DNA of 64,000 nucleotides from Pseudodesulfovibrio sediminis (lineage in GTDB: Bacteria > Desulfobacterota > Desulfovibrionia > Desulfovibrionales > Desulfovibrionaceae), in the NCBI RefSeq assembly GCF_020886695.1, contig NZ_AP024485.1, positions 2,551,001 through 2,615,000 on the forward strand. Direction: 5' to 3'. The notes below the pieces were generated by a model. The model did not search any database and was not told the DNA's origin. It saw only the letters and a list, made by a program, of their open reading frames with translations. Shown here one piece after another: positions 1,021-15,376 of this stretch. Within the stretch, counting starts at the first letter, position 1, and each line of letters opens with the position of its first letter. Position numbers and translations under genes: made by a program.

Positions 1021-2066
1021 TTTTTTTCACCTTCGCTGTTCGGCTGTTCATTTTCGAGATATTTGATGATGGGAATTTCACGGCCGTCTACATTCAAGGT
1101 ATCACCTGTGTACTGGCCACCGTCCGGGCACAGGGTGCATCCCAGATGGTCCAGGCGTCGTTTTTCTCGCATGTCTTTGCGAAAGACCTGAAATTTTGTG
1201 GAAGTCCAGATTGCTTTCAGGGAGGTCTTCTGCACATTGCCCATGGCGTGATGCAGGTGGTAGTCGCCGTGGCAGGGGATGACCACGCCGTCCCAGGTGA
1301 TGAAAACCCGCTGAAAAGGGGACTGGCACACATACTCCGGGTCGTGTTTGATGAGCTCGGGATTTTCCCGATGCTGTTCCGCAATGACCGCAATCCTGTC
1401 TACATAGGGTTCCCAGTAGTCGAAGTATTCGGGAGTGTTCGCAATCACACCGGAAATGGTCTGCACGCGCACAAGCGGCTTGGCAGTGTTTCGGGACTTC
1501 TTCAGGCGGTATAAGGTGCGGACTATGTTGGTTATGTACTCAAAGGTGATGGGTTTGCGGATGCGTTCATACTCTTCGTTCAGTCCATCGATTGAAAACG
1601 ATATCCAGTCCAAACCTGCGTCCATGAACGCCTTGAGGGACTCCTCGTTCAGCAGTCCGCCATTTGTGAGGAAGGCAACATCTCGGATGCCTTTTTCTTT
1701 TGCATAGCGCACCATCTCCACCAGCCGTGGATTCATGGTTGGCTCGCCTCGCCAACTGAGTTTGACGGAAAAGACATTGTGCTCCGCACATTCGTCAATG
1801 ATCTTGGTGAAAAGATCGAAATCCATGAGACCGCGCATGGTCCCGTCGTCCATTTGGGAGCGGGTGCACATAGGGCATTGCAACTGGCAACTGAGTGATG
1901 TCTCGATGTCCACGGTCTGTGGGAAGTCAGGGACAATGTTCAGGCGAGGGAACCAGTGCCATTTGATACGATCCCAAAGTAGGAGCAGGAAGTGCCCACG
2001 CCGGAAGAAGTACCGGAGATTGTCGAACCGTTTGTTCACCACGAAATAGTTCAGATTGATTTTCAT
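1017..2066 (-). CDS. Radical SAM protein with SPASM-like C-terminus
   Basis: A 349-residue radical SAM enzyme. The SAM-cluster motif CQLQCPMC gives Cys60, Cys64 and Cys67. A C-terminal cysteine set (Cys247, Cys265, and CTLC at 310-313) fits a SPASM or twitch auxiliary iron-sulfur cluster. A Trp- and Arg-rich N-terminal stretch of about 45 residues precedes the core. It lies between a cytidylyltransferase gene and a NeuB paralogue in one tight leftward unit (27 bp upstream gap, 4 bp downstream overlap). This suggests a radical-based modification or rearrangement of a sugar or sugar nucleotide, but substrate and reaction cannot be read from sequence. Radical SAM/SPASM proteins also act on peptides and in cofactor synthesis. 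Confidence 0.85.
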   Translation of the reverse strand: MKINLNYFVVNKRFDNLRYFFRRGHFLLLLWDRIKWHWFPRLNIVPDFPQTVDIETSLSCQLQCPMCTRSQMDDGTMRGLMDFDLFTKIIDECAEHNVFSVKLSWRGEPTMNPRLVEMVRYAKEKGIRDVAFLTNGGLLNEESLKAFMDAGLDWISFSIDGLNEEYERIRKPITFEYITNIVRTLYRLKKSRNTAKPLVRVQTISGVIANTPEYFDYWEPYVDRIAVIAEQHRENPELIKHDPEYVCQSPFQRVFITWDGVVIPCHGDYHLHHAMGNVQKTSLKAIWTSTKFQVFRKDMREKRRLDHLGCTLCPDGGQYTGDTLNVDGREIPIIKYLENEQPNSEGEKK

Positions 2067-2093
2067 CGTACAGAGGCTTCACTGGGTTTGAGA

Positions 2094-2780
2094 TTATGGG
2101 GTTTCAAGGCCATCCAACGCTTCGGCGATGATAAGGTCTTCGGGTTCATCAATGTCCACCGATCTGAGTCGAGGCATGAGATACCCCTTTTGCGGAGAGC
2201 CGTGAAACGTTTTTGCCTTGAGAAAAGCTGGAACCGAAAAAGCGTATGTGCTTCCGTTGTCGATGACGAATTTCGGCAGATCCTGCCGTTTTTTCAGCGC
2301 CCATTCGGGGAAGGCAAACTGGAGCAGACCGTTCACTTCGATTTTTGCCATGTTCGGTGGGAAGGGATATTCGGAAACCGCCACCGAGAAATCACACTGC
2401 CCTGTTGTAATCAGATCGACCGTTCCCTTGATATCTTTAGCCTTTCTCAATGGCGCAGCAGGAAAAAGGCAGCAGAGTATATCCCATGTTCGACCGGCTG
2501 ATTTTTCGGTGTGCAGGAAGTCCATACAGACTTCTGCCAGCCCGACGGTGTCTCCTGCCAGAGCGGGAGGTCTTTTTACGGTCTCCGCGCCGAATTTCGT
2601 TGCGATGGAGGCAATTTCATCATCGTCAGTTGAAACGACAACGCGATCGAAAAGACCTGTTTTTTCAGCTTCTTGAATGGTGTAAGAAATGACGGGCATT
2701 CCCTTGTATGGAGCGATGTTTTTGCGCGGAAAACGTTTGGATCCGCCGCGGGCAGGAATGAGTGCCATGATTTTCTTCAT
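2094..2780 (-). CDS. CMP-nonulosonate cytidylyltransferase-like protein (NeuA family)
   Basis: Acylneuraminate cytidylyltransferase family, which activates nonulosonic acids with CTP to CMP-sugars. The N-terminal nucleotide-binding motif IPARGGSKRFPRKN is intact and is followed by VVVSTDDDEIA and the expected fold. The ATG at 2780 is preferred because family members begin a few residues before IPARGGS; an in-frame ATG at 2816 would add 12 residues, and neither has a strong Shine-Dalgarno site. Expected length from 2780 is 228 residues. It is first in the leftward unit with the radical SAM gene and the NeuB paralogue, so it probably activates the product of that paralogue, not of the canonical NeuB at 3766. 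A second NeuA lies at 12054-12740. Confidence 0.82.
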   Translation of the reverse strand: MKKIMALIPARGGSKRFPRKNIAPYKGMPVISYTIQEAEKTGLFDRVVVSTDDDEIASIATKFGAETVKRPPALAGDTVGLAEVCMDFLHTEKSAGRTWDILCCLFPAAPLRKAKDIKGTVDLITTGQCDFSVAVSEYPFPPNMAKIEVNGLLQFAFPEWALKKRQDLPKFVIDNGSTYAFSVPAFLKAKTFHGSPQKGYLMPRLRSVDIDEPEDLIIAEALDGLETP

Positions 2781-3118
2781 GCAGGGTCCCAGGAGCTGAA
2801 GTGTTTGTTGATCCATTAATATATTACGATTAATTTAAAAACAACGGTATGACAAGAAGAGACACTCTGCGGGGCGTGTTTCAGACGGTCTGTTCCGGTT
2901 TTGAGTCAGGCGCACAATTTGCATGGTATGGATCTTGAGGCAAAAGTCGCTCTCAGTTGCAAAGGCGATGTGAGACGTTGTCAGATCAGTTGGTTGGCTG
3001 GACAAGATTGATCATGCTCTTTATGTTAAAACACTTGGAGTGATTGATTCTCATGGTGAGTTTGGAGTGGTGGTGTCGGGAATTTGTTAAGTAAACGAAT
3101 AAATTTGATGAGGGGTCT
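2781..3118. other. Divergent intergenic region between two glycan transcription units
   Basis: 338 bp separating leftward and rightward units, AT-richer than the flanks. It must hold the two divergent promoters. I found no convincing -35/-10 pair, terminator or small gene. A Shine-Dalgarno-like GAGGGG lies just before the GTG start at 3119. Confidence 0.5.
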
Positions 3119-3745
3119 GTGAACGTACTGGCAATCGGGGCGCATTATGATGATGTGGAATTGGGCTGCAGTGGTACTCTGCTGAAGCATGTGGCTGATG
3201 GGGACACGGTTACGTTGATTGTGGCCTCCAAGTCCGCGTACAAGGACCCCAAGGGGAATCTTGTGCGCTCTGCCGAAGTGGCTGAAGCAGAGGGAGAGGC
3301 CGCAGCCAAGATCATGGGAGTGGACTGCATCCGCTTGGACTACGAAGCCTTGTATGTTCCAGACGATGAAGAGTTGACTCGAATTATCCGTCAAAAGATC
3401 GAAGAGTTATCCATTGATATTGTCTACAGCCATTGGGTGCATGATGTGCATCGTGACCACCGCAATTTGGCTCGGGTGACTCTGATGGCGTCGAGACCTG
3501 TGCCCAGAGTCCTCATGTATCGCAGTAATTATTACGACACATACGAACCTTTTAGGGGAACGTTCTACTCTGATATTAGTGTGTTCATGGATACAAAGGT
3601 TGAGGTTATCAGTGCACACGAGTCTGAGTTGGAGCGGGTGCGATATACATGGATCGACTTCATGAAACGACAAAATGCCAATGATGGTCAAAAAATTGGC
3701 GTCAAATACGCTGAAAAATTCGAAGTCGTAAAGTACTTGGTTTAG
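3119..3745 (+). CDS. PIG-L/LmbE-family de-N-acetylase
   Basis: A 208-residue member of the LmbE/PIG-L zinc deacetylase family, which removes N-acetyl groups from sugars such as GlcNAc conjugates. The N-terminal motif GAHYDDVELGCSGT carries the metal ligands (His8, Asp11 region), and a later HWVHDVHRDH block supplies the third His. The start is GTG with AGGGG about 5 bp upstream. It opens the rightward glycan unit, 20 bp before canonical neuB. In this setting it probably exposes an amino group on a sugar precursor, which a downstream acyltransferase could re-acylate. That link is inference; bacillithiol or mycothiol-type substrates are family alternatives. Confidence 0.85.
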   Translation: MNVLAIGAHYDDVELGCSGTLLKHVADGDTVTLIVASKSAYKDPKGNLVRSAEVAEAEGEAAAKIMGVDCIRLDYEALYVPDDEELTRIIRQKIEELSIDIVYSHWVHDVHRDHRNLARVTLMASRPVPRVLMYRSNYYDTYEPFRGTFYSDISVFMDTKVEVISAHESELERVRYTWIDFMKRQNANDGQKIGVKYAEKFEVVKYLV

Positions 3746-3765
3746 ATCAAGCGAGGAGAAATACG

Positions 3766-4827
3766 ATGTCTTTCAATAAAAAATTTCTGATCGGCGACCG
3801 GGAAGTTGGGGTTGGTTGTCCTGCCTATCTTATTGCCGAGATCGGGCGCAATCACAATGCTGATATGAACCTGGCAAAACAAATGGTTGATGGTGCGCTG
3901 GGGGCTGGTGCCGATGCCGTCAAATTTCAATCTTTCAAGGCTGAAAGCCTTCTCATAAAAGAACTGCCCAAGGCTTCGCATATTCAAGAGACGTCGTCCG
4001 ACACCAAATCTGCCTACGAAAGCACAGAAGAAGTCGAGTTGCTTCCGGAAAATCATTCACTGCTCCAAAAGTATGTGCAGCAAAAAGGTGGAACATTCTT
4101 CTCCACGCCAGAAGATCATTCCATGGTCTCACTGCTGGACGAACTCAAGGTCCCAGTATTTAAAATCGCATCCCTTGATATCGCGTATCTCGATCTTATC
4201 GAGGCTATCGCTGCAACAGGCAAACCGATTATCATGTCCACAGGGATGTCCTATCTCGGAGAAATTGAGCAGGCTTTGGGTGTTTTGGAAAAAATGAGCA
4301 TAAAAGATGTTGTGGTGCTGCATTGCACATCCAATTATCCGCCTCGCGATGAAGATGTGAACCTGCGGGCTATGCAAACTATTGCCCGCGCCTTTGATGT
4401 GCCCGTGGGCTATTCGGATCACACTCCATCAGTTGGCATCAGTATTGCCGCCGCCGCCCTTGGGGCGTGTGTCATTGAGCGCCACTTCACTTTGGATAAG
4501 AATTTACCCGGCCCGGATCAGCGCCTTTCGCTGACCCCCGAGGAATTTGGCCTTATGGCCCGCGAAATTCGGAGCGTGGAAAAGGCGCTCGGTTCCACCA
4601 TGAAGAAGCCGGTAGAATCCGAATTGGAAATGCGCCGACTGCACCGGCGTCGCCTTGTTGCTGCGAAGGATTTGAAAGCGGGACAGACACTTGCTCGAGA
4701 GGATGTTGCTTGCAAGTGCAGTGAGTTCGGTTTGGACCCTGTACACATTCCGGCCCTTGTCGGACGAAATGTGCTCCGAGATCTCCTCAAGGATGCTCCT
4801 CTGCTTCAAGAGGACTTCCAGTCATAG
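3766..4827 (+). CDS. neuB: N-acetylneuraminate / nonulosonate synthase
   Basis: Canonical NeuB-type enzyme of 353 residues that condenses phosphoenolpyruvate with an N-acylated six-carbon sugar to a nine-carbon nonulosonic acid. Visible signatures are IAEIGRNHNAD near residue 23, LHCTSNYPP near 185, GYSDHT (metal ligand His219) and IERHFTLD (metal ligand His240). A C-terminal SAF/antifreeze-like domain occupies about residues 295-350. GAGGAG lies about 9 bp before the ATG. The product could be a sialic, legionaminic or related acid; family sequence alone does not decide which. The next gene follows after 8 bp, so this is part of one operon. Confidence 0.92.
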   Translation: MSFNKKFLIGDREVGVGCPAYLIAEIGRNHNADMNLAKQMVDGALGAGADAVKFQSFKAESLLIKELPKASHIQETSSDTKSAYESTEEVELLPENHSLLQKYVQQKGGTFFSTPEDHSMVSLLDELKVPVFKIASLDIAYLDLIEAIAATGKPIIMSTGMSYLGEIEQALGVLEKMSIKDVVVLHCTSNYPPRDEDVNLRAMQTIARAFDVPVGYSDHTPSVGISIAAAALGACVIERHFTLDKNLPGPDQRLSLTPEEFGLMAREIRSVEKALGSTMKKPVESELEMRRLHRRRLVAAKDLKAGQTLAREDVACKCSEFGLDPVHIPALVGRNVLRDLLKDAPLLQEDFQS

Positions 4828-4835
4828 AGGGCTCC

Positions 4836-5924
4836 ATGAAGAAATTGGCCATTCGGGTTGACGGTAACCGCCATATTGGACTGGGACACGTGTTTCGCTG
4901 TCTTCACTTGGCTGAGTACTTACAGGGATGTGGCTGGGAATCGACTTTTCTTGTTCTGCAAAGCAGTCTGGAATCTGGCATACATCGTTTTTTTGAAGAT
5001 CAATCATTTGATTTTGTACCTGTTTCACGCCCGGATGATATATGGGAACAAGATCATGAAGTCTTGCGTCGTGCCTTGGGCCAGGGTGATTTCGATGCGG
5101 TGGTGCTGGATCTCATACAGCCGGACAAGGAAGATGACGACCTGAACAGCAACACAGAGTTTTGTCCCATGGACGTTCAGGCTTGTTTGGCCCTTATACG
5201 CAGTATGGGGATACGGAGCCTTGCCATCTCAGATAGGTTTGAACCGGTTGATCTTGTTGCCGATGTGGTTGTCAATACTTGTCCCGCTCAGCGTGCAGAA
5301 TGGTATGAAGGGAGCGAATCCCGGTTTTGTGTGGGGCCACGCTATTATTTCCTGCCCACCAGTTTCCAGGGGTTACGTCATACCGCCAAGGTCTTTCGGG
5401 AAGATCGACCCCACATCGTTGTTTTTTGCGGAGGCAATGACCATCGAGGGTTTACTCCGGTCGTCCTTGATGCCCTGGCAACGCTTTCAGAGGCGATGAC
5501 GGTGGAGGTCATTTTGGGGGCGGCAACGCAAAACGGAGAAGAGAAATGCCTTTGCTACGAGAAGCAGGGCATTGCCTGTCAATATGGGGTTGAAGATATG
5601 GCACCAGTCCTCTTCAACGCGGATTTCGTCATTTCGGCTTCCGGTAACACACTTTTCGATCTGGCTGCGCTGGGTATACCGGCCGCTGCTGTTTCAACAC
5701 GTCCCAGACAGTTGGTGACAGCAGAATATTTTACCGATCAAGGGTGCTGTTTGAACCTGGGGATGGAGCACGATGAAATAGCCACTAATATCAGGCTATT
5801 GTTGCCTGATGTCATATCCTCTCGTGCACGACTTGAGGCCATGAGCTGTGCAGGGAAGAAAGCGGTTGACGGGAATGGCATGGAACGGGTTGCAAGTGTG
5901 TTGGATTCTTTTGTGTCCCTTTAG
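4836..5924 (+). CDS. PseG/SpsG-like nucleotide-sugar hydrolase or glycosyltransferase
   Basis: A 362-residue GT-B-like protein related to PseG (UDP-sugar hydrolase of pseudaminic acid synthesis) and SpsG. The N-terminal segment HIGLGHVFRCLHLAEYL has the GxGHxxR signature with His18, matching the catalytic His position of PseG. A second Rossmann half holds a UDP-binding-like stretch (VFCGGNDHRG near 195, ISASGNTLFDLAALGIP near 265). It is longer than Campylobacter PseG (about 270 residues). In this operon it probably releases a free sugar from a UDP-sugar to feed neuB just upstream. A true glycosyltransferase role is an alternative. Confidence 0.78.
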   Translation: MKKLAIRVDGNRHIGLGHVFRCLHLAEYLQGCGWESTFLVLQSSLESGIHRFFEDQSFDFVPVSRPDDIWEQDHEVLRRALGQGDFDAVVLDLIQPDKEDDDLNSNTEFCPMDVQACLALIRSMGIRSLAISDRFEPVDLVADVVVNTCPAQRAEWYEGSESRFCVGPRYYFLPTSFQGLRHTAKVFREDRPHIVVFCGGNDHRGFTPVVLDALATLSEAMTVEVILGAATQNGEEKCLCYEKQGIACQYGVEDMAPVLFNADFVISASGNTLFDLAALGIPAAAVSTRPRQLVTAEYFTDQGCCLNLGMEHDEIATNIRLLLPDVISSRARLEAMSCAGKKAVDGNGMERVASVLDSFVSL

Positions 5925-5942
5925 GAGTTTTTTCAATGGGAT

Positions 5943-6824
5943 GTGAGCATGACAGACGCTGATTTATATAGGGCATTATCGCGAATCCGCATGACGGAGG
6001 CCGCCATTTTGGAGATGGCTTCTGCAGGAGTATTGCGGGGAACATGTCACGTTTGTATTGGCCAGGAGATCAATGGTGTGGCTGTGATGGGTGCCATGGA
6101 TTCGAAACTGGATCATGTGGTCAGCAACCATCGTTGTCACGGTCATTATTTGGCTTTTGGCGGAGATGTGAAAAGTCTGTTGGCAGAAGTACAGGGGCTC
6201 AAGGCAGGGGTCAGCTCAGGTCGTGGCGGAAGCCAGCATTTGAAGCAGGGCAATTTTTTTTCAAATGGGATTCAAGGTGGTGGAGCGCCTATAGCCTGCG
6301 GTTTGGCCATGGGAGAAAAACGGCGCGGAACGCAGGGAATAGTGGCCTGCTGTATAGGCGATGGCACTCTCGGACAAGGGGTCCTGTATGAGTCTTTGAA
6401 CATGGCCTCCCTGTGGTCTTTGCCCGTGTTGTTTCTGGTGGAAGCAAACGGGTATGCTCAATCGACTCCTACAGCCGCTGGTGTTGCCGGTTCCATCAAG
6501 GATCGGGCGGGTGCTTTTGGCATTCAGGTCATGGAGACATCTTCAACCGATGCGCAGGAGTTGTGCCGGTTTGGAGAAAAAGCCGTCAGGACTGTTCGCG
6601 AGTCGGCAGCGCCTGTGTGGGCTGTCATACATTCCCGCCGGTTATGCGCACACAGCAAAGGTGATGACACTCGTCCTGCAGAGGAAGTTGAGCGTTTATG
6701 TCAGTCTGATCCTCTCGAGTTGCACGCACAAAAGTTGTCTCAGAGCGAACGTGAACGCATAGACACAGCCGTGACCAAAACGATAACCGAAGCACTCGCT
6801 TCCTTGGAAAAGGGGATGCGATGA
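5943..6824 (+). CDS. Thiamine-diphosphate 2-oxoacid dehydrogenase E1 component, alpha subunit
   Basis: A 293-residue E1-alpha protein of the pyruvate/branched-chain/acetoin dehydrogenase type. The thiamine-diphosphate motif is complete: GDG at 139-141, then 27 residues to Asn169 in VEANGYAQST. The GIQGGGAPIACGLAMG segment is also typical. The start is GTG at 5943 or ATG at 5949; AGGAG lies at 5923-5927. With E1-beta (4 bp overlap downstream) it should decarboxylate a 2-oxoacid and reductively acylate a lipoyl domain. Such a complex inside a nonulosonate locus is unusual and points to making an acyl donor for sugar modification. No E3 dihydrolipoamide dehydrogenase gene is present here, so that activity would be borrowed. 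Confidence 0.9.
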   Translation: MSMTDADLYRALSRIRMTEAAILEMASAGVLRGTCHVCIGQEINGVAVMGAMDSKLDHVVSNHRCHGHYLAFGGDVKSLLAEVQGLKAGVSSGRGGSQHLKQGNFFSNGIQGGGAPIACGLAMGEKRRGTQGIVACCIGDGTLGQGVLYESLNMASLWSLPVLFLVEANGYAQSTPTAAGVAGSIKDRAGAFGIQVMETSSTDAQELCRFGEKAVRTVRESAAPVWAVIHSRRLCAHSKGDDTRPAEEVERLCQSDPLELHAQKLSQSERERIDTAVTKTITEALASLEKGMR

Positions 6825-7831
6825 CCACTGTTCTTCAGTCGCTGAATCAGGCTTTTCACAGGGTGATGGAGATCCATCCCGATGTGCTGGCCATTGGGGA
6901 AGACATTGTTGATCCGTATGGTGGTGCCTTCAAGGTGACCCGTGGATTGAGTACGGCTTTTGGTGACAGAGTCATCTCCAGTCCCATTAGCGAGGCTGGC
7001 ATCACAGGGTTAGGCATAGGATTGACCTTGCAGGGATTTCGACCTGTGGTTGAAATCATGTTTGGTGATTTCATCACGCTTTGTGCTGACCAGCTTGTGA
7101 ATCAGGCTTCAAAAATAGCAACTATGTATAGCGAACCGGTCAGTGTGCCTCTGATAGTCAGGACACCCATGGGGGGGCGCAGGGGGTATGGCCCAACCCA
7201 CAGCCAGACCTTAGAACGGATGTTTCTTGGTGTGTCTGGCTTGGATGTCATTGCACTGTCGCCCTTGGTTGATTGTGGCAGCCTCTTTGAGCAGGTTGTC
7301 CTGACCACGGATGTACCGACTCTTTTCGTTGAGAATAAATCCCTCTATGCGATGCCTATTCTCAATGCTGAGTCCGTCAGCAAACGGTATGGCATGACTC
7401 TCAAAAGCTCCAATCAGGCGATTCCGACGATGACAGTTTCATTCGGGGGAGAACCTGATGTGACCGTTGTAACCTACGGTGGTATGGTGCCGGTCGTCCT
7501 TGAGGCGGTGAAGCAGGTCTATGAGAAAGAGGATTTGCTCTGTGAAGTTATCGTGCCCCATTGTATTTCATCGATCCCTGATGTCGAGTTGTGCGAGAGT
7601 GTAAGCATTTCCCGACGGCTGGTCGTCGCCGAAGAGAGTGGGATCGGGTATGGATGGGGGAGCGAAGTGATCGCCAATATTTCAAGGATTGCATTGGATG
7701 CTCCTCCTCAACGAGTAGGGGCATCGGAATCCTCCATCCCTGTAAATAAAGCGTTGGAAGCCGAAGTGCTGCCTCAGGTAGAGAACGTGGTTCAAGCCAT
7801 AATAAACTCCGTCGATGAAGATCTGCAATAG
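6821..7831 (+). CDS. Thiamine-diphosphate 2-oxoacid dehydrogenase E1 component, beta subunit
   Basis: A 336-residue transketolase-like E1-beta partner. It has the conserved VLAIGEDIVDPYGGAFKVT region, the ISEAGITGLGIGLTLQGFRP block and a C-terminal transketolase domain (VTVVTYGGMV onward). The ATG overlaps the E1-alpha stop (ATGA), so the subunits are translationally coupled. Its 3' end runs 26 bp before the probable ATG of the lipoyl-fusion gene. Together these three genes form a minimal E1-lipoyl module. The 2-oxoacid (pyruvate, 2-oxobutyrate, a branched-chain acid or other) cannot be told from sequence. Confidence 0.9.
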   Translation: MTTVLQSLNQAFHRVMEIHPDVLAIGEDIVDPYGGAFKVTRGLSTAFGDRVISSPISEAGITGLGIGLTLQGFRPVVEIMFGDFITLCADQLVNQASKIATMYSEPVSVPLIVRTPMGGRRGYGPTHSQTLERMFLGVSGLDVIALSPLVDCGSLFEQVVLTTDVPTLFVENKSLYAMPILNAESVSKRYGMTLKSSNQAIPTMTVSFGGEPDVTVVTYGGMVPVVLEAVKQVYEKEDLLCEVIVPHCISSIPDVELCESVSISRRLVVAEESGIGYGWGSEVIANISRIALDAPPQRVGASESSIPVNKALEAEVLPQVENVVQAIINSVDEDLQ

Positions 7832-7856
7832 CTGTAAAGAACCAAGGACAAGATAC

Positions 7857-9317
7857 ATGGCTCATAAAGTACTGATACCCCGACTCAATCCCAACGAGGA
7901 TGAAGTGCTTGTCGTAGAAACTCTTGTGGACGGTGATCGTGTCGAAGTTGGTGATGAACTCTTTGTGGTGGAATCAACCAAAGCTGCCATGTCTGTTGAG
8001 AGCGACTTTGCTGGTTTCGTGCGTGGTCTGGCTATTGAAACGGGTGAGTACGCGCACGTTGGCAGCATTGCCTTATTCATAACAGCAACGCCCGATGAGT
8101 CTTATTTAGACGAAGATTCGCCCACGCAGACCCCGTCAGATGAACCAAAGAAGTCGACGGCAAAGAGCCGTTTGCTCGCCAAGAAGCGGTCTCGATCGAC
8201 ACGAGGAAAAAAACAGAAGGTCGGAGCAGTGACGGATGTTGCTCTTGCTGCTGATCTGGACTGGGTCCGTTCGGCCAAGGGAGAACTCGGTGAACTTGCT
8301 CTTGCTGAAGAGTATAGGGATTACACTGAGGACACTCGTTGGGATAATGCGGGATGTTGCAGCATAGGAGAAGGTGTCACTTTCGGTGCCGGGAGTATGG
8401 TTCGCGCCAAACGGCTGGTCATTAAGGATGGAGTGTCCATTGGCCCCAATACCTTCATTGAAGGGGATGACATTTTTCTGGGAGAATTCGTCAAGGTAGG
8501 CAAAAATACAAGCATGGTGAGTGTGGATATTATCTTGGGTGCTGGGGCCTATGTCGGACATGAGGTTGAAGTGGACCTCAGTGGTGGGCGTTCAGGTGAA
8601 TCCAGATTCTGGGGCGGGCCAGCTTCACTGATTTCCCCTCGATGTTATGTGAATACGGCTCGGGAGGTCGTTCTTGAAACAGAGTCTGCCCTGAGTCCGG
8701 GAGTGAGCGTTTTCACTCATCGTTTCTGGCAGTCTGTGCTGGATGGGTATGACGCCCTGTTCGCAGGGGTTCGCCTGTGTGAGAAATCCTGGGTCGGTTC
8801 GGGATGCCAGGTGCTGCCTGGAGTCGTGGTCGGTCATGGAGCTGTTGTCATGTCCGGTTCAACCGTTGTGGATCAGATTCCCCCTGCCACGCTGTGCGGT
8901 GGTGTGCCGGCAACCGTCATCCGCAAGTCGGTGAAAAGAGACCTTTCTCAAGAGGACAAGGTTCAGGTGCTGGAGTCCATTTTAGATGAATTCTCCACGG
9001 TCTTGAAATTCAAGGGATGTGAGGTCGGCATGTTGATCACTGGCAAAGGGATAGCAGTAACAACGCCGGACACTGTTGAACGACAGATTGTTATTTGTAC
9101 TGATTCTTCTTTAGAGGGGATATTGCCCGGGAGCATTGTGCTGAGTTTAAACGGTTTTCTGCCTGAAATGACCGAGGTCTATATTTTTGATCTCGTGGGC
9201 GGTGTGGTCCGAGGGGATGAAGACAGGCTGGTTCATGAAGTGCGTAACTTCTTGCGTCGGAAAGGTATCCGTTTTCAGCCGTATGCATGGGATGCAGATT
9301 ACCGACGCGGCCTGTAG
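7857..9317 (+). CDS. Fusion of lipoyl domain, hexapeptide-repeat acyltransferase and unknown C-terminal domain
   Basis: A 486-residue fusion from the ATG at 7857 (AAGGA 8 bp upstream; an in-frame ATG at 7815 overlaps E1-beta and is less likely). Residues 1-75 form a lipoyl domain with the modified Lys in VVESTKAAMSVES (Lys42). Residues 76-140 are a Ser/Lys/Pro-rich linker resembling the swinging-arm linkers of E2. Residues 160-360 are a left-handed beta-helix acyltransferase with hexapeptide repeats (SIGEGVTFGAG, VSIGPNTFI, WVGSGCQVLPGV) and a candidate catalytic His288 in VFTHRFW. Residues 360-486 are not recognised. The usual E2 CoA-acyltransferase domain and its HxxxDG motif are absent. 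I infer that the acyl group passes from the lipoyl arm to a sugar amine or hydroxyl instead of to CoA. Confidence 0.85.
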   Translation: MAHKVLIPRLNPNEDEVLVVETLVDGDRVEVGDELFVVESTKAAMSVESDFAGFVRGLAIETGEYAHVGSIALFITATPDESYLDEDSPTQTPSDEPKKSTAKSRLLAKKRSRSTRGKKQKVGAVTDVALAADLDWVRSAKGELGELALAEEYRDYTEDTRWDNAGCCSIGEGVTFGAGSMVRAKRLVIKDGVSIGPNTFIEGDDIFLGEFVKVGKNTSMVSVDIILGAGAYVGHEVEVDLSGGRSGESRFWGGPASLISPRCYVNTAREVVLETESALSPGVSVFTHRFWQSVLDGYDALFAGVRLCEKSWVGSGCQVLPGVVVGHGAVVMSGSTVVDQIPPATLCGGVPATVIRKSVKRDLSQEDKVQVLESILDEFSTVLKFKGCEVGMLITGKGIAVTTPDTVERQIVICTDSSLEGILPGSIVLSLNGFLPEMTEVYIFDLVGGVVRGDEDRLVHEVRNFLRRKGIRFQPYAWDADYRRGL

Positions 9318-9329
9318 AGGGGAATCCTT

Positions 9330-10136
9330 ATGTCAGCTATCACTTTAGCCCTGCAGGGCATAGTGGCCCCGGAACTCAGAGACTATGGAGTCCGTATTCC
9401 GTATGCGGCCAAAACGTTTGGTCACCTTGTCGACGGACTGGAAATTGGTATGCATGCCCATATGGCCCCCAATATTGCCCAGAGGATTCTCCGTCCTGAT
9501 GTGAAGAAAACCTTGCGAGAATTTTCGCGCAACTCGTTGCATTTTGCTGCTCATCCAGATCATCCCGTGGACAGTGAAGTCCTTTCTTCGATTATCGGAC
9601 TGAGCTCAAGTCTGTATGAAGAAGGGCTTATCCATACCGTGAGCTTCCATCTGGACATGCAGCCTTTTCTGGATACCATTCGGCAATCTCTCCCTTTAGA
9701 GCTGAGAGTGCTTTTTGAGAATCTAGACGGGAGGAGTACAGCCTTCAACACGCTTGAGGCGATGGTCCAAGCCGTGCGAGATTTTCCTGGTTGGGGCGTA
9801 TTGCTGGATGTGGCTCATGTTCTTGAAATGCAGGAGCATACTGGTCAGTCCGTGCAGGATTTTTTCTCTGCTCTGGGTGACTCCATTCGTCAAATTCATT
9901 TTTCTATGCCGGGACATCTTTACGAGAAAGATGATCTCTGGCCCGGTTTTGAAGCCATGCACAGTTTTGCTTTCCTGGGTGGTGAGGCTGCGTTTGGGGC
10001 CTATCAATCTGTGGATCTTCTGTCCATTGAACACATCACGCTGGAGGGGGTGATCCCCCCGAATCATGAGGACTATGTCGCTCGGGAAATCGAGTACCTC
10101 AAGAGTCTCCGGCCTTCCTCCAAGTCCTTATCCTGA
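9330..10136 (+). CDS. Xylose-isomerase-like TIM-barrel protein
   Basis: A 268-residue protein of the sugar-phosphate isomerase/epimerase (AP endonuclease 2-like) TIM-barrel superfamily. Metal-site-type residues fall at strand ends: VLFENLDG, GVLLDVAHVL, QIHFSMPGH and SIEHITLEG. The ATG has GAGGGG upstream and lies 12 bp after the acyltransferase fusion, so it belongs to the same operon. It probably isomerises or epimerises a sugar intermediate, but the substrate is unknown. Its last 9 bp overlap the end of the convergent gene at 10128. Confidence 0.72.
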   Translation: MSAITLALQGIVAPELRDYGVRIPYAAKTFGHLVDGLEIGMHAHMAPNIAQRILRPDVKKTLREFSRNSLHFAAHPDHPVDSEVLSSIIGLSSSLYEEGLIHTVSFHLDMQPFLDTIRQSLPLELRVLFENLDGRSTAFNTLEAMVQAVRDFPGWGVLLDVAHVLEMQEHTGQSVQDFFSALGDSIRQIHFSMPGHLYEKDDLWPGFEAMHSFAFLGGEAAFGAYQSVDLLSIEHITLEGVIPPNHEDYVAREIEYLKSLRPSSKSLS

Positions 10137-11126
10137 AGTCGAAAACACCCTGACCTTAGGGTCTTGAAGGTCCAATATGGCCAGAAGGCCACTGCGGCTT
10201 GTTGTTGGTGAGAGGCTCTGCACATTGATTGTTTTGTGCGCTGAGTTCAATTGTATTGTTGAGTTCGGATCGCCAGTGGCATCGCAGGAGTAGAGCCGGT
10301 TTTGCATGGCGATAACAATACAACCATTTATGGTGCCAGCACCCCGGCACTCATGGGAAAAAACCGTGCGTTTCCAAGGCCTGAAGTCTGTTGACTCAAG
10401 GCGTTCGATAATAGGGAAAAAATGGTCAGTCAGGAACAGGTTGCCCTTCCACACAACGAACTGGCGAGGCCAGAGGAGCACACTGCTTGGATGGATGACG
10501 GCTCGTGCGTGCGGTGCATTGAGGTCAATGGAACAGATCGTTCGCCTGGTAGTGCTGTCGTTTTGGAGGATGAGGTAGAGGCGATTTTGGTGACGGGCAA
10601 AATTGATGAGGTGTCGAGCCTCTTTTCTATCGGGTAACTGCTGTTCAAGATCGAGTGACACATGCTCTTTGAATGTGGTGTCTATGGCAATTATCTTGCG
10701 ACCTGCGTCTCCGGCAATCCAGAGGATATCTTCGTCAGGCCAGAGGTGGGCAGAACGAAGCCAATCCCCATTCATTTCGTGGAGGAGCTCCTCTTTTTCA
10801 AAAAAGTGAAGGACTGGGTCGTTCAATTCTGTGACAGCGAGGATGTCGCTGCCGGAAATCCACGCTAGGTTCACAGGTGTTTTGAGTATTCCCTGCCCGT
10901 AAATTCCTGCAGGTTCCCAGCCAACGCTATTGACCGGTAAAGTGGCAAGGTAGTCCTCGCCCACAGAGTGAATCCTCTGTACCATCATTTTCCATATGTC
11001 ACTATGGACAAACCCGGCTCTTGCCGTGTGATCAGGTAATGACTGAGCCAGTGCCTGATATGTATCAAGGCAATAATTACTGTCACTGTCGGGCGAGGTG
11101 AGATTATTCATTGACCCTTCGTTCAT
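10128..11126 (-). CDS. Uncharacterised protein, possibly beta-propeller
   Basis: I do not recognise this 332-residue protein. After about 50 polar residues it shows repeated beta-rich segments spaced about 40-50 residues apart (VNLAWISGSDILAV, LWPDEDILWIAGDAG, FARHQNRLYLILQND, FVVWKGNLFLTDHFF), which suggests an NHL- or Kelch-like propeller. There is no signal peptide. The start overlaps the end of the NeuA-like gene by 23 bp; an ATG at 11111 would shorten it by five residues and reduce this. It is last in the leftward glycan unit, so a role in glycan transfer or recognition is possible but not shown. Confidence 0.6.
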   Translation of the reverse strand: MNEGSMNNLTSPDSDSNYCLDTYQALAQSLPDHTARAGFVHSDIWKMMVQRIHSVGEDYLATLPVNSVGWEPAGIYGQGILKTPVNLAWISGSDILAVTELNDPVLHFFEKEELLHEMNGDWLRSAHLWPDEDILWIAGDAGRKIIAIDTTFKEHVSLDLEQQLPDRKEARHLINFARHQNRLYLILQNDSTTRRTICSIDLNAPHARAVIHPSSVLLWPRQFVVWKGNLFLTDHFFPIIERLESTDFRPWKRTVFSHECRGAGTINGCIVIAMQNRLYSCDATGDPNSTIQLNSAHKTINVQSLSPTTSRSGLLAILDLQDPKVRVFSTSG

Positions 11127-12042
11127 CGAGTATGTCCATCCTGAGTATATCTATTGAGTTCTGGACAAGGAGCGCCTCCTCTTCATGGAGAACGACACCT
11201 CTCGAATTTGTCCTGTCTTGATGCAGCAAGGCTTCCAATCGTCCTATTTTTATATGCTCTGTTTTTTTGAAGACTTGAGGAAAAGCCTGTCGGCCCCAGA
11301 TCTTTTTTCCGTTGTGATCCAGCGTAAGGCATTTGGCGTTGTCACGACTCCAGAGTCCACACTCGGGTTCATAATGATTTTCTGCATGATACTGTCCGCC
11401 ATGGATTTCCTTTTTGATTATGCAGTGCAGGGTTGAATGGGGTTCAAGATTGAACGGAAGCGTTGTCTTGAGTACGCCATTGGTGATCGGTGCATCGAGC
11501 CTTTCAAATCCATGGGATGTTGTCGCCAACAGGGTGGCAACGCCGTGTTGATTCTGTTCAAGTACGGTCTGGCAGACACGGTTCTTTTTCCGGTCAAGAG
11601 CCTCCTCGGGAAGCGGCTTCACATTTTCGATTATATGAAATTTCCTGAACTGGCAGGGATGGTCGCTTGGCTCTACACACGATGTAATGAGTGTGTCTGG
11701 TGCATCTTTCAGCAATGAAATCCCTTCTTCGATCGAAGACGGTGAAATGTGAGGGGCGAAACCGGAGAGAAGTACAAAAATATCGTCCTCTGCACCCAGC
11801 TGTTGCGCTGCGGCTTTGATTGTTGAGCCTTTCCCCACACAGCCGATAACCGAGAGGAAGGGGAGGCCCAAGTCCGTCAGAATTTTCTGGCTCTTGACTG
11901 AAGTCGCCAGAAAATTGACCGTGTGCTCATGTGGGATATGGCTCAAAAGTGTGTGGAGGTGGGGGAGTGCGATGTTGCAATACTCCCGGCTCCATGAGCA
12001 GCTCTCGTTGTAGCTATCTGTTATTAGGATTTGTATCGGCAT
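11104..12042 (-). CDS. Degenerate cytidylyltransferase-like protein
   Basis: A 312-residue protein from the ATG at 12042 (an in-frame ATG at 12090 would overlap neuA by 37 bp). The middle (DDIFVLLSGFAPHISPSSIE, then LITSCVEPSDHPCQF) resembles the core and substrate side of NeuA-type GT-A cytidylyltransferases. The N-terminal IPARGGSK nucleotide loop is missing and replaced by ITDSYNESCSW. It lies 11 bp after neuA in the same unit. It may be a catalytically changed paralogue, an accessory subunit or a different nucleotidyltransferase. Assignment rests on weak similarity read by eye. Confidence 0.55.
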   Translation of the reverse strand: MPIQILITDSYNESCSWSREYCNIALPHLHTLLSHIPHEHTVNFLATSVKSQKILTDLGLPFLSVIGCVGKGSTIKAAAQQLGAEDDIFVLLSGFAPHISPSSIEEGISLLKDAPDTLITSCVEPSDHPCQFRKFHIIENVKPLPEEALDRKKNRVCQTVLEQNQHGVATLLATTSHGFERLDAPITNGVLKTTLPFNLEPHSTLHCIIKKEIHGGQYHAENHYEPECGLWSRDNAKCLTLDHNGKKIWGRQAFPQVFKKTEHIKIGRLEALLHQDRTNSRGVVLHEEEALLVQNSIDILRMDILDERRVNE

Positions 12043-12053
12043 GGCGCTGTCAA

Positions 12054-12740
12054 TCAAGCTGCTTTTTCGAAGTTGTTGAGTCCGCGGCAAATGATCCTTT
12101 CTGCAAGCTCCATGTCGTGTTGTGTGTCGATATCAACCCATTCGATGGGATGTTGTAAAATATGGAAATACGGACTGTTGTGGACTTTGGGCTTCTGGCC
12201 GAAGAAGTATCCGTAACTCCTGTACCAACGACCAGAGGGTGTTTTTATCTGATTTTGGGGCACGATCGGCGTCAACTGCCCGTTGAAATCACGGCTTACG
12301 TAGTCAGAATATCCAGCCACGGTTTCCCGGGCGGTGAAGACAGGACTCATCCCCTCCTTGCCTTTGCTCACCAGTTCGGCAACGAGCCTGGGATTCCTGA
12401 ACGGGTGGGTCGGATAGAGAGTGGCGTAAAAGTCTGGATAGTAGTTGTCCTCTCCAAGCTTGAGTAAAAGATGGTTTACTGCGCTCGTCGTAGATTCCTT
12501 GTCGCCTGCCAGTTCTTGCGGGCGCAGGAACGGAATTTCAGCACCGTACGCAACGGCAACTTCGGCGATTTCTGGATCTTCGGTTGAGACTATGATCCGG
12601 TCAAAACAGCCGGCCTCTTGTGCTGTAAGGATGGCGTGGGCTACCAGTGGGATGCCGCCCAGAAGGCGGATGTTCTTCCTGGGCAGCCCCTTGGAGTTTC
12701 CCCGTGCAGGAATGATGGCGAGAGCCTTGAAGTTATCCAT
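12054..12740 (-). CDS. neuA: CMP-N-acylneuraminate cytidylyltransferase
   Basis: A 228-residue CMP-nonulosonate synthetase. It has the intact N-terminal loop IIPARGNSKGLPRKN, the FDRIIVSTEDPEIAEVA block, TLYPTHPFRNP (donor/acceptor site region) and IEWVDIDTQHDMELAE at the C-terminus. It converts a nonulosonic acid plus CTP to the CMP-activated donor used by glycosyltransferases. The start overlaps the 3' end of the WecB-type gene by 8 bp. It differs clearly from the other homologue at 2094-2780, suggesting that two distinct nonulosonic acids are activated in this island. Confidence 0.88.
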   Translation of the reverse strand: MDNFKALAIIPARGNSKGLPRKNIRLLGGIPLVAHAILTAQEAGCFDRIIVSTEDPEIAEVAVAYGAEIPFLRPQELAGDKESTTSAVNHLLLKLGEDNYYPDFYATLYPTHPFRNPRLVAELVSKGKEGMSPVFTARETVAGYSDYVSRDFNGQLTPIVPQNQIKTPSGRWYRSYGYFFGQKPKVHNSPYFHILQHPIEWVDIDTQHDMELAERIICRGLNNFEKAA

Positions 12741-13845
12741 TGTCTACTCTGTTGTTTGCAAATCGTTCGTTGAGATCAGTGACGATTCGTTGTGCTGTTT
12801 TGCCATCCCAGAACGTGGGAATTCTTGGTGTGGTAACACCTGACCCAAGAGCATCGTCTGCGGCGGAGGTGATGCTGTCCGGCTCCACAAGTCGGTTGGT
12901 TCCTTCAGTACAGGTGATTGGTCGTTCCGTGTTCGGGCGGATTGTCAGGCAGGGGATTCCGAGTATAGTGGTCTCTTCCTGCAAGCCGCCGGAGTCGGTG
13001 ATCACCAGGGCTGCCCTGTGCATGAGTGATGTGAAATCGAGATATCCCTGAGGGGGAATGATGTGGATAGAGCCATGTTGCTCAAGAGTGGGAAGCATTC
13101 CCATATTGTCGAGCTGCTGGCGGGTCCGCGGATGCAGCGGAAGAACGAGAGGCATTCGAACCGAAAGCTCCATGAGGGCATTGATGATGGCCTTGAGTCT
13201 TGTCGGGTCATCAACATTGCCGGGACGGTGGAGGGTGACCACACAATATGTGTCGGCTTCAATGTCGAATTGTTCCCAGGCCCTCCGGCTTTGGATGGCT
13301 GGCATCATTGTGTTCAGGGAGTCGATCATGCAGTTCCCGACAAACGAAATGCGATTGGGCTCAACACCTTCTTGCAGAAGGTTTTCGGATGCATCTTCTG
13401 ATGGCGTCCAGCAGATGGATGAGATGGCATCCGTGAGCACTCTGTTGATTTCTTCTGGCATCGTCTTGTCCCGACTGCGCAGTCCTGCTTCGAGATGGGC
13501 AACGGGGATATGCATTTTTACGGAGGTCAATGCACACGCCAGAGTCGAGTTGACGTCACCAGGAACCACAACCACATCCGGGGTCTGCTCAAGCAGGTAC
13601 TTCTCATAAGCCACCATAACGGCAGCGGTCTGCGTAGCGTGGCTGCCGGAACCCGTTTGGAGGTTTACACTTGGCTCAGGAAGCTTGAGCTCATCGAAAA
13701 AGAGCTGGGACATGCTATAATCGTAATGTTGGCCAGTGTGCACGAGTTTTACGGTATAGTCGTTTTCACTGGACAGAGCATGCCAGAGAGGGGCTACTTT
13801 CATGAAGTTGGGCCTTGTGGCCGCGATTAAATGGATTGTCTTCAT
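12733..13845 (-). CDS. wecB: UDP-N-acetylglucosamine 2-epimerase, non-hydrolysing type
   Basis: A 370-residue GT-B-fold epimerase interconverting UDP-GlcNAc and UDP-ManNAc. Catalytic-site motifs of the WecB family are present: VPGDVNST, HLEAGLRSRD, PEEINRVLTD, TLHRPGNVDDP and TDSGGLQEE. These favour the non-hydrolysing WecB class over hydrolysing NeuC. The ATG overlaps the GT4 stop by 4 bp (ATGA). It may supply a ManNAc-type precursor to the nonulosonate genes or to another surface sugar. Confidence 0.9.
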   Translation of the reverse strand: MKTIHLIAATRPNFMKVAPLWHALSSENDYTVKLVHTGQHYDYSMSQLFFDELKLPEPSVNLQTGSGSHATQTAAVMVAYEKYLLEQTPDVVVVPGDVNSTLACALTSVKMHIPVAHLEAGLRSRDKTMPEEINRVLTDAISSICWTPSEDASENLLQEGVEPNRISFVGNCMIDSLNTMMPAIQSRRAWEQFDIEADTYCVVTLHRPGNVDDPTRLKAIINALMELSVRMPLVLPLHPRTRQQLDNMGMLPTLEQHGSIHIIPPQGYLDFTSLMHRAALVITDSGGLQEETTILGIPCLTIRPNTERPITCTEGTNRLVEPDSITSAADDALGSGVTTPRIPTFWDGKTAQRIVTDLNERFANNRVDNG

Positions 13846-15071
13846 ACCAGCTCTCTTTCCAACGCAGCGTATGTTTCAACCAAACGGGTGGCATCATGTT
13901 TCCAGGCATAGGGACCGGTTGCTGCGGCGAATCCATTTTCCGCTTTGTGCATCGCTTCTTCCTCATGGGAATGGATGTGAGCGAGCTGTGCCGCGAAGTC
14001 CGCTGCATTGTTGGCTTTGAATAGATAGCCTGAATTGGTTTCTTCAAGAATGCGTTTGAGCGGTCGGCAGTCACTCGCGAGAATGGGCCTTTTGCATATC
14101 ATGTATTGAAAGAGCTTGTGTGGAACGGTGGTGTGCGTGTGCTCAAAGTCATTGTGTGGTACGAGACAAACCCGACTGGCGTGGATGTAGCTGTTTACCG
14201 TGTCAAACGGTTGCCAGTTAATGATTTCAACACTGTTACCGAGGCCCAGTGAATCAGCATAGTTTCGGATTCTGGCAGCGCTTTCGTCATTGGTCCCGAC
14301 AAAGGTCAGGTGGAAGTTCGGAATCAGTTTCGCGGCATGAGCAGCACCATCCAGGGCTGTATCCCAGCCTCTATGCGGTCCAATTCCGCCAATGTATGAA
14401 ACCATCCATTTATCTTTATATTTATCCAGGATGTTCTGGTCTGCCCTTTCGACCGGGAAGTCGAAAGTCGTTGTGTCTTCGGTATTGGAAACAGTCACAA
14501 TTCTTGCCTGATCAAGGCCATACTTCAACAATCGTTCAGCCCCTTCAGGGACCACTACCACCACGCGTTTACATTTTTCGACAGCCGCTTTCTCATGCCA
14601 TCTCCAGAGAGTGTAGTTGAACAGAATTGATGCTTTGAAGCGCATATATGGTGACAGATGAGATCGCCATGCCCGTTTGGCAGCCGGCATGTTTTCGTGA
14701 AAGTCTGCGACAACAGGGAGGCCACGGGGTATGGCGCAGTCCAGAACAAGGGGGAGATACGGAAAGTCATGGACATGTACGATGTCCGGTTTACATGTGT
14801 CGAGATAGTTTTCCACTACTGGCTTGACCCACGCCTCCCTCAGAGTGAAATTTGCCTTGCGACGTGCAAACCATGAGGGAGGGCCGCTGACATCTTCTCT
14901 CATGACATCAATTCCCGGCTCGAAAGTTTCGAATTTTTTCGAATGAGCACTCGTGGTCTTGGTGCAGATAGTGATTTTGTGCCCAGCCTCCACCAACGCA
15001 TGTGCCTCTTTGGATATGCGGATATCAGGAGGAAACCCGTTGTTACATAAGTGGATCATGGCAATATGCAT
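13842..15071 (-). CDS. Family 4 glycosyltransferase
   Basis: A GT-B glycosyltransferase of the GT4 type, 409 residues from the ATG at 15071. A longer reading frame begins with TTG at 15143, but that TTG lacks a ribosome site and sits inside a probable -35 box. The N-terminus MHIAMIHLCNNGFPPDIR and the acceptor-side RISKEAHAL match GT4 enzymes. The donor domain has YIGGIGPHRGWDTALDGAA and the region VPHKLFQYMICKRPILASDC, which resembles the EX7E zone with changed acidic residues. It is first in the leftward unit with wecB and neuA, so it probably builds the same surface glycan. Confidence 0.85.
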   Translation of the reverse strand: MHIAMIHLCNNGFPPDIRISKEAHALVEAGHKITICTKTTSAHSKKFETFEPGIDVMREDVSGPPSWFARRKANFTLREAWVKPVVENYLDTCKPDIVHVHDFPYLPLVLDCAIPRGLPVVADFHENMPAAKRAWRSHLSPYMRFKASILFNYTLWRWHEKAAVEKCKRVVVVVPEGAERLLKYGLDQARIVTVSNTEDTTTFDFPVERADQNILDKYKDKWMVSYIGGIGPHRGWDTALDGAAHAAKLIPNFHLTFVGTNDESAARIRNYADSLGLGNSVEIINWQPFDTVNSYIHASRVCLVPHNDFEHTHTTVPHKLFQYMICKRPILASDCRPLKRILEETNSGYLFKANNAADFAAQLAHIHSHEEEAMHKAENGFAAATGPYAWKHDATRLVETYAALERELV

Positions 15072-15114
15072 AATTGGCGTCCCGATTTGCGGCGTTTTAC
15101 TCGTTGTGTGAACA

Positions 15115-15143
15115 ATTTTCCCACTACTGAGTGAGGTTGTCAA
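15115..15143 (-). promoter_or_regulatory. Candidate sigma-70 promoter for the leftward glycan unit
   Basis: On the minus strand a perfect TTGACA (15143-15138) is followed after 17 bp by GAAAAT (15120-15115), placing transcription start about 37 bp before the ATG at 15071. The -10 box is weak (4 of 6). The 233-bp region up to 15377 is AT-rich and shows no gene. Confidence 0.45.
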
Positions 15144-15376
15144 AAGTCGGACAGAGCTGAGAATCTGTATCTATCTGTTTTTATGAGACTGTCTTGATTC
15201 TGGCCTTAGATGCTCATATCAGTATGTTTCTATGAAAAAAATATGCCAAAAGAATCTGTTTTGATGCTCTCTACTGTTTTTTCGGATGTTTTTCAAAAAT
15301 GTTTACCGGGTGAATAAAAAAATGCCTACCGTCAGAGATGTGGCCTTCGCTGAAAACTCTTGTTAAGTGTTAGTGT

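Follow-up and report, generated by a model that had tools for sequence, protein, structure and literature searches.

A three-gene module in a nonulosonic-acid locus

The window analysed here is a stretch of 64,000 nucleotides (nt) of Pseudodesulfovibrio sediminis, covering positions 2,551,001-2,615,000 of a single-contig genome of 3.76 Mb. At positions 5943-9317 of the window, three overlapping or abutting genes on the plus strand form what we call the module. They encode the alpha and beta subunits of a thiamine diphosphate (ThDP)-dependent E1 enzyme and a fusion protein in which a lipoyl domain is joined by a linker to a hexapeptide beta-helix acyltransferase domain and a conserved C-terminal domain (Table 1). 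An earlier note, made by a model from the letters of the sequence, had given these coordinates and this make-up, with intact E1-alpha and E1-beta genes, and the Pfam matches and open reading frame (ORF) positions agree. The genes are conserved as a set in other genomes and associated with deacetylase genes, their E1s are kin to RenH of the renieramycin symbiont, and the fusion has no recognisable catalytic domain of an E2, the acyltransferase of 2-oxoacid dehydrogenase complexes. The module probably serves a carrier-bound exchange of the N-acyl group of a nonulosonic-acid-type sugar, free of coenzyme A (CoA).

Table 1. Features of the module and its surroundings, in window positions.
Feature	Position	Strand	Basis
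E1-alpha (ThDP-binding) subunit	5943..6824	+	E1_dh 1e-42
E1-beta subunit	6821..7831	+	Transket_pyr 9.3e-24, Transketolase_C 1.2e-16
Fusion: lipoyl, linker, hexapeptide beta-helix acyltransferase, conserved C-terminal domain	7857..9317 (ORF from 7815)	+	Pfam, alignments, models
Lipoyl domain of the fusion (Pfam limits)	7893..8069	+	Biotin_lipoyl PF00364 1.8e-8, residues 27-85 of the ORF
Hexapeptide beta-helix domain of the fusion (limits approximate)	8358..8924	+	Hexapep, PDB profile match to maltose O-acetyltransferase
C-terminal domain of the fusion (limits approximate; helix, strands, helix in models)	8967..9314	+	No Pfam match
PseF-like cytidine monophosphate (CMP)-sugar synthetase	2094..2816	-	TIGR03584 178.1 bits, below cut-off 205.7
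PIG-L family de-N-acetylase	3119..3745	+	PF02585 5.5e-21
NeuB-family nonulosonic acid synthase	3766..4827	+	NeuB 1.3e-86; NeuB_NnaB 370.4 bits, below cut-off 399.65
PseG-like nucleotide-sugar hydrolase	4836..5924	+	TIGR03590 128.6 bits, below cut-off 153.55
Triose-phosphate isomerase (TIM)-barrel (xylose-isomerase-like) protein, directly 3' of the fusion	9330..10136	+	AP_endonuc_2 7.7e-5, 22.9 bits, below gathering score 31.1

Domains of the fusion protein

The fusion ORF of 500 residues starts inside the E1-beta gene. Because two homologues, L018 and L019 (L and G numbers are our handles for loci and genomes), begin at the position equivalent to the ATG at 7857 (M15 of the ORF), the protein most likely starts at this codon and ends at 9317. 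The codon of the lipoyl lysine occupies positions 7980-7982; the residue is K56 of the ORF and K42 counted from the ATG at 7857, the numbering that had been used before. The linker had been described as flexible. Its residues 84-165 are of low confidence in the model (predicted local distance difference test, pLDDT, below 50), yet it contains a short motif, STAKSRLLAKK, to which stretches of L018, L019 and L020 correspond.

The beta-helix domain was recognised by Hexapep (PF00132; 4.7e-10, 39.2 bits against a cut-off of 27) at residues 319-351 of the ORF. Of the beta-helix proteins matched in the PDB profile search, maltose O-acetyltransferase was the best, and perosamine N-acetyltransferase was also present. 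A conserved FTHxFWQ motif lies in this domain, and we take the His of its Thr-His pair (H302 of the ORF) to be the catalytic one. The Hexapep and PDB profile matches favour the left-handed helix proposed earlier; on handedness, as on the fold of the C-terminal domain, the structure models say nothing because the Foldseek matches are too weak. With the fusion modelled in full (mean pLDDT 63.2), the only matches at E <= 0.001 were lipoyl- or biotinyl-domain proteins. For the model of the beta-helix and C-terminal domains (mean pLDDT 71.9) no match was found at that threshold, the weak top rows being adhesins and pectin-degrading enzymes. No Pfam match was found for residues ~385-500 at E <= 0.1; matches to Streptomyces beta-helix proteins without a lipoyl domain extend over this region as well. 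The E2 catalytic domain (2-oxoacid_dh, PF00198), reported absent before, was not found in the Pfam scan of the fusion ORF at E <= 0.1 either.

Relatives of the fusion

Altogether 13 distinct lipoyl/beta-helix fusions, the window's included, were found in at least four phyla. A contig pattern scan yielded five relatives among 70 pattern matches, four of them with the fusion: L018 (a Rhodopirellula metagenome-assembled genome, MAG), L019 (Halochromatium roseum), L020 (a Kiritimatiellia MAG with a scaffold gap) and L021 (a Deltaproteobacteria MAG). The genome surveys scored only three to five first-look candidates per genome, and their counts are thus lower bounds. In the window's own phylum (297 genomes) eight genomes matched at E <= 1e-10, with two full fusions (the window and G056), a beta-helix protein without a lipoyl domain (G287) and five partial matches. 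Among 398 genomes of the phylum of L019, 50 matched at E <= 1e-20; the fusions were L019 and G477, while G546 and G408 matched the beta-helix part only and the rest of the other 48 only model positions 2-162, at the lipoyl end. The phylum of L018 (343 genomes) gave eight matches at E <= 1e-30, of which seven are fusions, L018 among them. We take Rhodopirellula to be a planctomycete and hence call the six others (L092-L097) planctomycete. The eighth (G842, locus L098) is a beta-helix protein without the lipoyl region, no E1 was found with it, and it stands outside the 13. In the phylum of L020 (337 genomes) only L020 itself matched. Locus L022, the partial matches L010-L014 and the 48 partial matches in the phylum of L019 are likewise outside the fusion counts.

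The window fusion shares 39-45% identity with those of L018-L020, so the joining of its domains is not a matter of chance. The lipoyl lysine is kept in 13/13 fusions, as is the Thr-His pair, which also occurs in L098. An E3_binding domain was found in seven of them (G056, L021, L092, L093, L094, L095 and L096). Since it stands there beside the beta-helix, we read the fusion as an E2-like scaffold in which the acyltransferase has been exchanged. The domain was not found in L018, L019, L097 or G477 (scanned at E <= 0.01, with an E3-binding-like stretch in its linker by eye), nor in L020 before its gap. In several fusions, the window's among them, the E3-binding part has thus been lost or altered.

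The earlier note had suggested looking for the same fusion and gene order elsewhere: E1-beta adjoins the fusion in 11/13 cases, nine of them with both E1 subunits (in L021 and L095 the E1-alpha gene is cut by the contig end). L096 had no E1 match, its contig ending too soon.

The fusion gene of L020 is interrupted by 100 consecutive N (10500-10599) with repeated edge sequence, which looks like an assembly gap and not a broken gene. The beta-helix protein at L017 7889-8782 matches the window fusion only over residues 261-368 and lies in an exopolysaccharide-type locus, with ORFs that read as an acyl-CoA dehydrogenase and an adenosine monophosphate (AMP)-ligase.

Kinship of the E1 subunits

The motifs that we take to be the E1 catalytic residues are intact in the alignments (GDG...N, HR and AHS in the alpha subunit; PISE and THSQ in the beta subunit), and the E1-beta stretch RTPMGGRRGYGPTHSQ is close to its RenH counterpart. 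Among the plasmid rows listed for the window E1-alpha, a spread listing, the closest was RenH (46.7%). For E1-beta the top plasmid rows were Streptomyces sp. NBC_01136 and NBC_01384 (40.1%) and RenH (39.9%). In NBC_01136 the genes stand in the row acyl carrier protein (ACP), E1-alpha, E1-beta and E2, with a condensation-domain gene further up. The best named families for the window E1s were pyruvate dehydrogenase E1 subunits, all below cut-off.

The largest tree comprised 25 E1s and 618 columns (supports given as Shimodaira-Hasegawa-like approximate likelihood ratio test/ultrafast bootstrap, SH-aLRT/UFBoot). The fusion-linked E1s and the RenH group (RenH, NBC_01136, S. cattleyicolor and Nonomuraea; 94.9/93) were split from 12 other E1s at 98.2/98. 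The E1s of the window, L018, L019 and L020 grouped at 99.8/99, and together with the RenH group and G477 at 100/100, while those of G056, L021 and the planctomycetes branched outside the group holding the window and RenH. The position of the G477 E1 varied by tree: with the window group at 52.4/69, or outside the window and RenH groups at 94/91 and 88.8/85. The first tree contained a long-branch G297 paralogue that was left out of the later two, and the truncated E1-alpha subunits of L021 and L095 were left out of the alpha alignments. QncN, a further enzyme discussed below, was not among the E1s compared. A pure pyruvate dehydrogenase or acetoin dehydrogenase identity of the window E1s was rejected, as the trees place them elsewhere.

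A gene row on a Sinorhizobium fredii plasmid (L080 3950-7330), acsA, E1-alpha, E1-beta, E2 and acyl carrier protein, is another possible lipoyl-to-ACP set that falls outside the RenH group in the tree.

Lipoyl and E2 proteins of the same genome

Biotin_lipoyl matches occur at five places in the P. sediminis genome, two of them within one protein. One operon, made up of E1-alpha, E1-beta, a gene lacking an NCBIfam match and E2, encodes the single 2-oxoacid_dh domain, and by eye its regulator seems sigma-54-dependent. We call this operon putatively acetoin-type because its genes are ordered as in an operon of Mycetohabitans, where the E2 carries the annotation acetoin dehydrogenase, and because of the E1 tree, where its E1 joins those of Mycetohabitans and Enterococcus at 91.6/90, apart from the window clade. 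It lies ~2.1 Mb from the window E1s along the contig. The earlier note had named a separate standard E2 partner as a finding that would speak against its proposal. The sole E2 has its own E1 pair of another clade, and it was therefore rejected as a partner of the window E1s. A lipoate-protein ligase (408 bits against a cut-off of 280) is encoded ~1.4 kb from the acetoin-type operon.

A third E1-alpha/beta pair lies near 785 kb of the genome (L103 4277-6300) beside genes that read by eye as radical-S-adenosylmethionine-like and heptose/lipopolysaccharide-type, ~11 kb from a LegC gene above cut-off; no Biotin_lipoyl match was found there.

Neighbouring genes

A deacetylase of Pfam PIG-L or PF01522 lies near the module in 5/13 cases, a DUF2334 protein, which we take to be deacetylase-like, in one (upstream of the L018 E1), and a deacetylase-like ORF without a family match in six. 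The PIG-L genes belong to the window, L019, L020 and G056 (locus L015), and the PF01522 polysaccharide deacetylase stands beside the G477 fusion. No deacetylase was found in L021, whose contig starts inside E1-alpha. The PIG-L gene of the window is the only PIG-L match in the P. sediminis genome (E <= 0.001); five other genomes had one (G056), two (G298), four (G299), nine (G297) and none (G477). PIG-L lies within 10 kb of the module in 4/6 genomes, with a probability of ~3.5e-8 under random placement, a rough figure, given that these genomes had been picked because they contain the module and that their loci are related to one another.

The six ORFs without a family match are those of the planctomycetes: directly 3' of each fusion (6/6) lies one conserved ORF, with 42-70% identity between loci. 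Three that were aligned (L094, L095 and L097) contain HDVD and GHExGLH motifs recalling NodB-type deacetylases. Their identity as deacetylases was not adopted, as those tested matched no family in Pfam, NCBIfam or PDB.

The Streptomyces proteins with beta-helix and C-terminal domain lacking the lipoyl domain adjoin PIG-L in 2/3 plasmid loci read (L023 8179-10029 and L025 7151-9002), where an AMP-binding enzyme, an aldo/keto reductase and an epimerase are nearby.

Four loci are nonulosonic-acid clusters: the window, L019, L020 and G477. Besides the window's own genes, NeuB homologues were found in the other three. The cut-off is passed by LegC in L019, by NeuC in L019, L020 and G477, and by NeuD in G477; LegB of L020 falls short of it (455.3 against 475). 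By this context the acceptor would be a nonulosonic acid or a precursor of one. The Halochromatium cluster (L019) also contains a formyltransferase-like gene (2676-3560) and, as the next gene after the fusion, NeuC (11463-12614); a second NeuC-like ORF lies at 4555. In the window, the module is separated from a second PseF-like CMP-sugar synthetase by two minus-strand ORFs of 332 and 328 amino acids (10128-12090), for which no NCBIfam match was found at E <= 1e-5.

Proposed mechanism and its alternatives

We propose the following sequence of steps. The PIG-L enzyme would strip the acetyl group from an amino sugar. From its kinship and intact catalytic residues we expect the ThDP-dependent E1, an enzyme of the RenH/QncN kind, to draw a two-carbon (C2) ketol unit from a donor, most probably a ketose phosphate though perhaps hydroxypyruvate, and to use it for reductive acylation of the lipoyl arm at Lys42. 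The arm would then present its thioester, most probably a glycolyl one, to the active site of the beta-helix domain near His302 of the ORF; the fusion of the two domains suggests that the acyl group would pass from there to the free amine without CoA. Finally, a dihydrolipoyl dehydrogenase encoded elsewhere, of which homologues are present, may re-oxidise the arm as a presumed partner. An amine as acceptor is suggested by the deacetylases that recur nearby, and glycolyl appears the likeliest group because the kin of these E1s are described as C2-glycolicacyl systems. Taken whole, this glycolyl route, giving N-glycolyl, sialic-acid-like surface sugars in several phyla, with the glycolyl-ACP systems of the RenH group nested in the E1 family (a position that depends on the rooting among the 12 other E1s), is a serious possibility that we rate a little below even. 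The outer fusions (G056, L021 and the planctomycetes) may use another acyl group.

Delivery from a lipoyl group to an acceptor other than CoA has precedents, because QncN/QncL/QncM, the RenH kin and, as a proposal, SclQ1-4 are described as passing a C2 unit to ACP. These systems, like NapB/NapD, combine E1-alpha/beta with a lipoyl carrier (RenI in the case of RenH), as does the module. NapB/NapD reportedly (Peng, 2012) bring a glycolyl unit via lipoyl to ACP for a nonribosomal peptide synthetase (NRPS). With RenH and its relatives the window E1s moreover share the clade described above. The carriers RenI, L100 and L101 have the 2-oxoacid_dh catalytic domain, whereas the window fusion has the hexapeptide beta-helix instead. 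The acceptor in these systems is ACP, while no ACP-like motif was found in six frames of window 1-16000 (simple pattern, open segments of at least 60 codons). Pyruvate and acetoin dehydrogenase complexes share with the module the E1 subunits and the lipoyl domain, and with seven related fusions the E3-binding domain. They differ in having the E2 catalytic domain; in addition, no match to E3, the lipoamide dehydrogenase, was found in the module locus, and the acetoin-type E1 of the same genome is of a different clade from the window E1s. Among the beta-helix acyltransferases for sugars, LpxA-type and NeuD-type enzymes resemble the domain in the fusion, although we know of no lipoyl donor for either; the NeuD model matched the fusion weakly (42 bits, far below the cut-off of 160.8). 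By published description, QncN/QncL/QncM produce a C2-glycolicacyl unit and attach it, from ketose phosphate via lipoyl to ACP and thus to a non-CoA acceptor as proposed for the module, and SclQ1-4 are proposed to turn ketose phosphate into the same unit (PMC6335953). LpxA is described as moving an acyl group from ACP to a nucleotide sugar (PMC6408518). For pepteridine, a route has been proposed in which E1 and E2-like proteins hand an acyl group to a small molecule without CoA, the E2-like subunit being fused to NRPS domains; unlike the module, that pathway has a carrier protein, a condensation domain and a pterin acceptor (PMC5384830).

The transfer from lipoyl to acyltransferase put forward in the earlier note is thus favoured, with the beta-helix in place of the E2 domain, E1-beta adjoining and deacetylases near, but it is unproven. 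The accompanying supposition of an acyl group made from a 2-oxoacid may be wrong, as ketose phosphate is the donor described for the systems to which the sister E1s belong. The statement that no characterised system has this design needs to be qualified by the lipoyl-to-ACP relatives; in the portions of open-licence literature covered by our search, neither the lipoyl/beta-helix fusion itself nor a lipoyl carrier with a beta-helix acyltransferase and a deacetylase partner was found described.

Four alternatives, which overlap in part, were weighed. The same machine could use pyruvate as donor and transfer plain acetyl, or another acyl group from another 2-oxoacid, 2-oxoacids being the donors supposed earlier. 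The pyruvate dehydrogenase families named for the E1s, although below cut-off, and the outer position of the G056, L021 and planctomycete E1s would fit this. The closeness of the window E1s to RenH and its relatives points elsewhere, and it makes little sense to remove an acetyl group and then put one back, so that we regard this as unlikely, if with a real chance. A hydroxyl group of a glycan or lipid as the acceptor, in place of the freed amine, would suit the many hexapeptide enzymes that are O-acetyltransferases, including the maltose enzyme that was best among the beta-helix matches of the PDB profile search. Against this stand the recurrent deacetylase neighbours, which point to an amine, and the presence of perosamine N-acetyltransferase and the like among the same matches; a hydroxyl acceptor is in our view quite improbable.

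The beta-helix domain might also use ordinary acyl-CoA, with the lipoyl domain and E1 making acyl-CoA through the acetoin-type E2 or serving otherwise. Most hexapeptide acetyltransferases use acetyl-CoA, the Streptomyces relatives without a lipoyl domain lie near an AMP-binding or adenylate-forming enzyme, and one canonical E2 is encoded in the genome. That E2, however, is the only one and has its own E1 pair, the fusion lacks the E2 catalytic domain, and the lipoyl/beta-helix fusion is kept in 13 genomes with its lysine intact, which makes this explanation improbable. As ThDP enzymes form branched sugars from pyruvate in other pathways, the E1 could instead add C2 to a keto-sugar by carboligation, giving a branched-chain sugar and leaving the lipoyl domain as a relic. 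The conservation of the lipoyl lysine (13/13), the fusion of its domain to an acyltransferase and the association with deacetylases render this highly improbable.

Several points weigh against the CoA-free N-acyl exchange that we prefer, or against its glycolyl version. The window fusion has no E3_binding match (Pfam, E <= 0.1), and its low-confidence models give no credible left-handed beta-helix match in Foldseek. The four lipoamide-dehydrogenase homologues of the genome reach at best 385.5 bits, below the cut-off of 408.8, making it the exception among six genomes searched, the other five having one above cut-off. No E1 was found in the 15 kb read around the L093 fusion, and those of the planctomycete neighbour ORFs that were tested had no match in Pfam, NCBIfam or PDB. 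ACP or NRPS neighbours do not define an E1 clade, since the S. griseofuscus and S. fredii E1s adjoin such genes yet fall among the 12 outside E1s. Deletion of sclQ1-4 left residual product in the scleric acid study (PMC6335953). The acceptor sugar is uncertain because a set reading by eye as LegB-LegC-NeuB-NeuC, with LegC above cut-off at 797 kb, sits elsewhere in the P. sediminis genome. A full nonulosonic-acid set was not seen in the loci of L018 (a LegC-like match), the planctomycetes, G056 or L021. The chemistry is a prediction: from these genes we infer lipoylation, the identity of the acyl group, its transfer and the independence of CoA.

Enzymes that modify nonulosonic acids are described as scarcely known, and explaining how Tannerella forsythia comes by its acetimidoyl and glyceroyl substitutions is called a major challenge (PMC6388019). 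The module would provide a defined gene set for how bacteria place unusual N-acyl groups on nonulosonic acids. If the proposal is true, the lipoyl swinging arm, whose known acceptors are CoA and, for a few natural products, ACP, would here feed a sugar acyltransferase directly.

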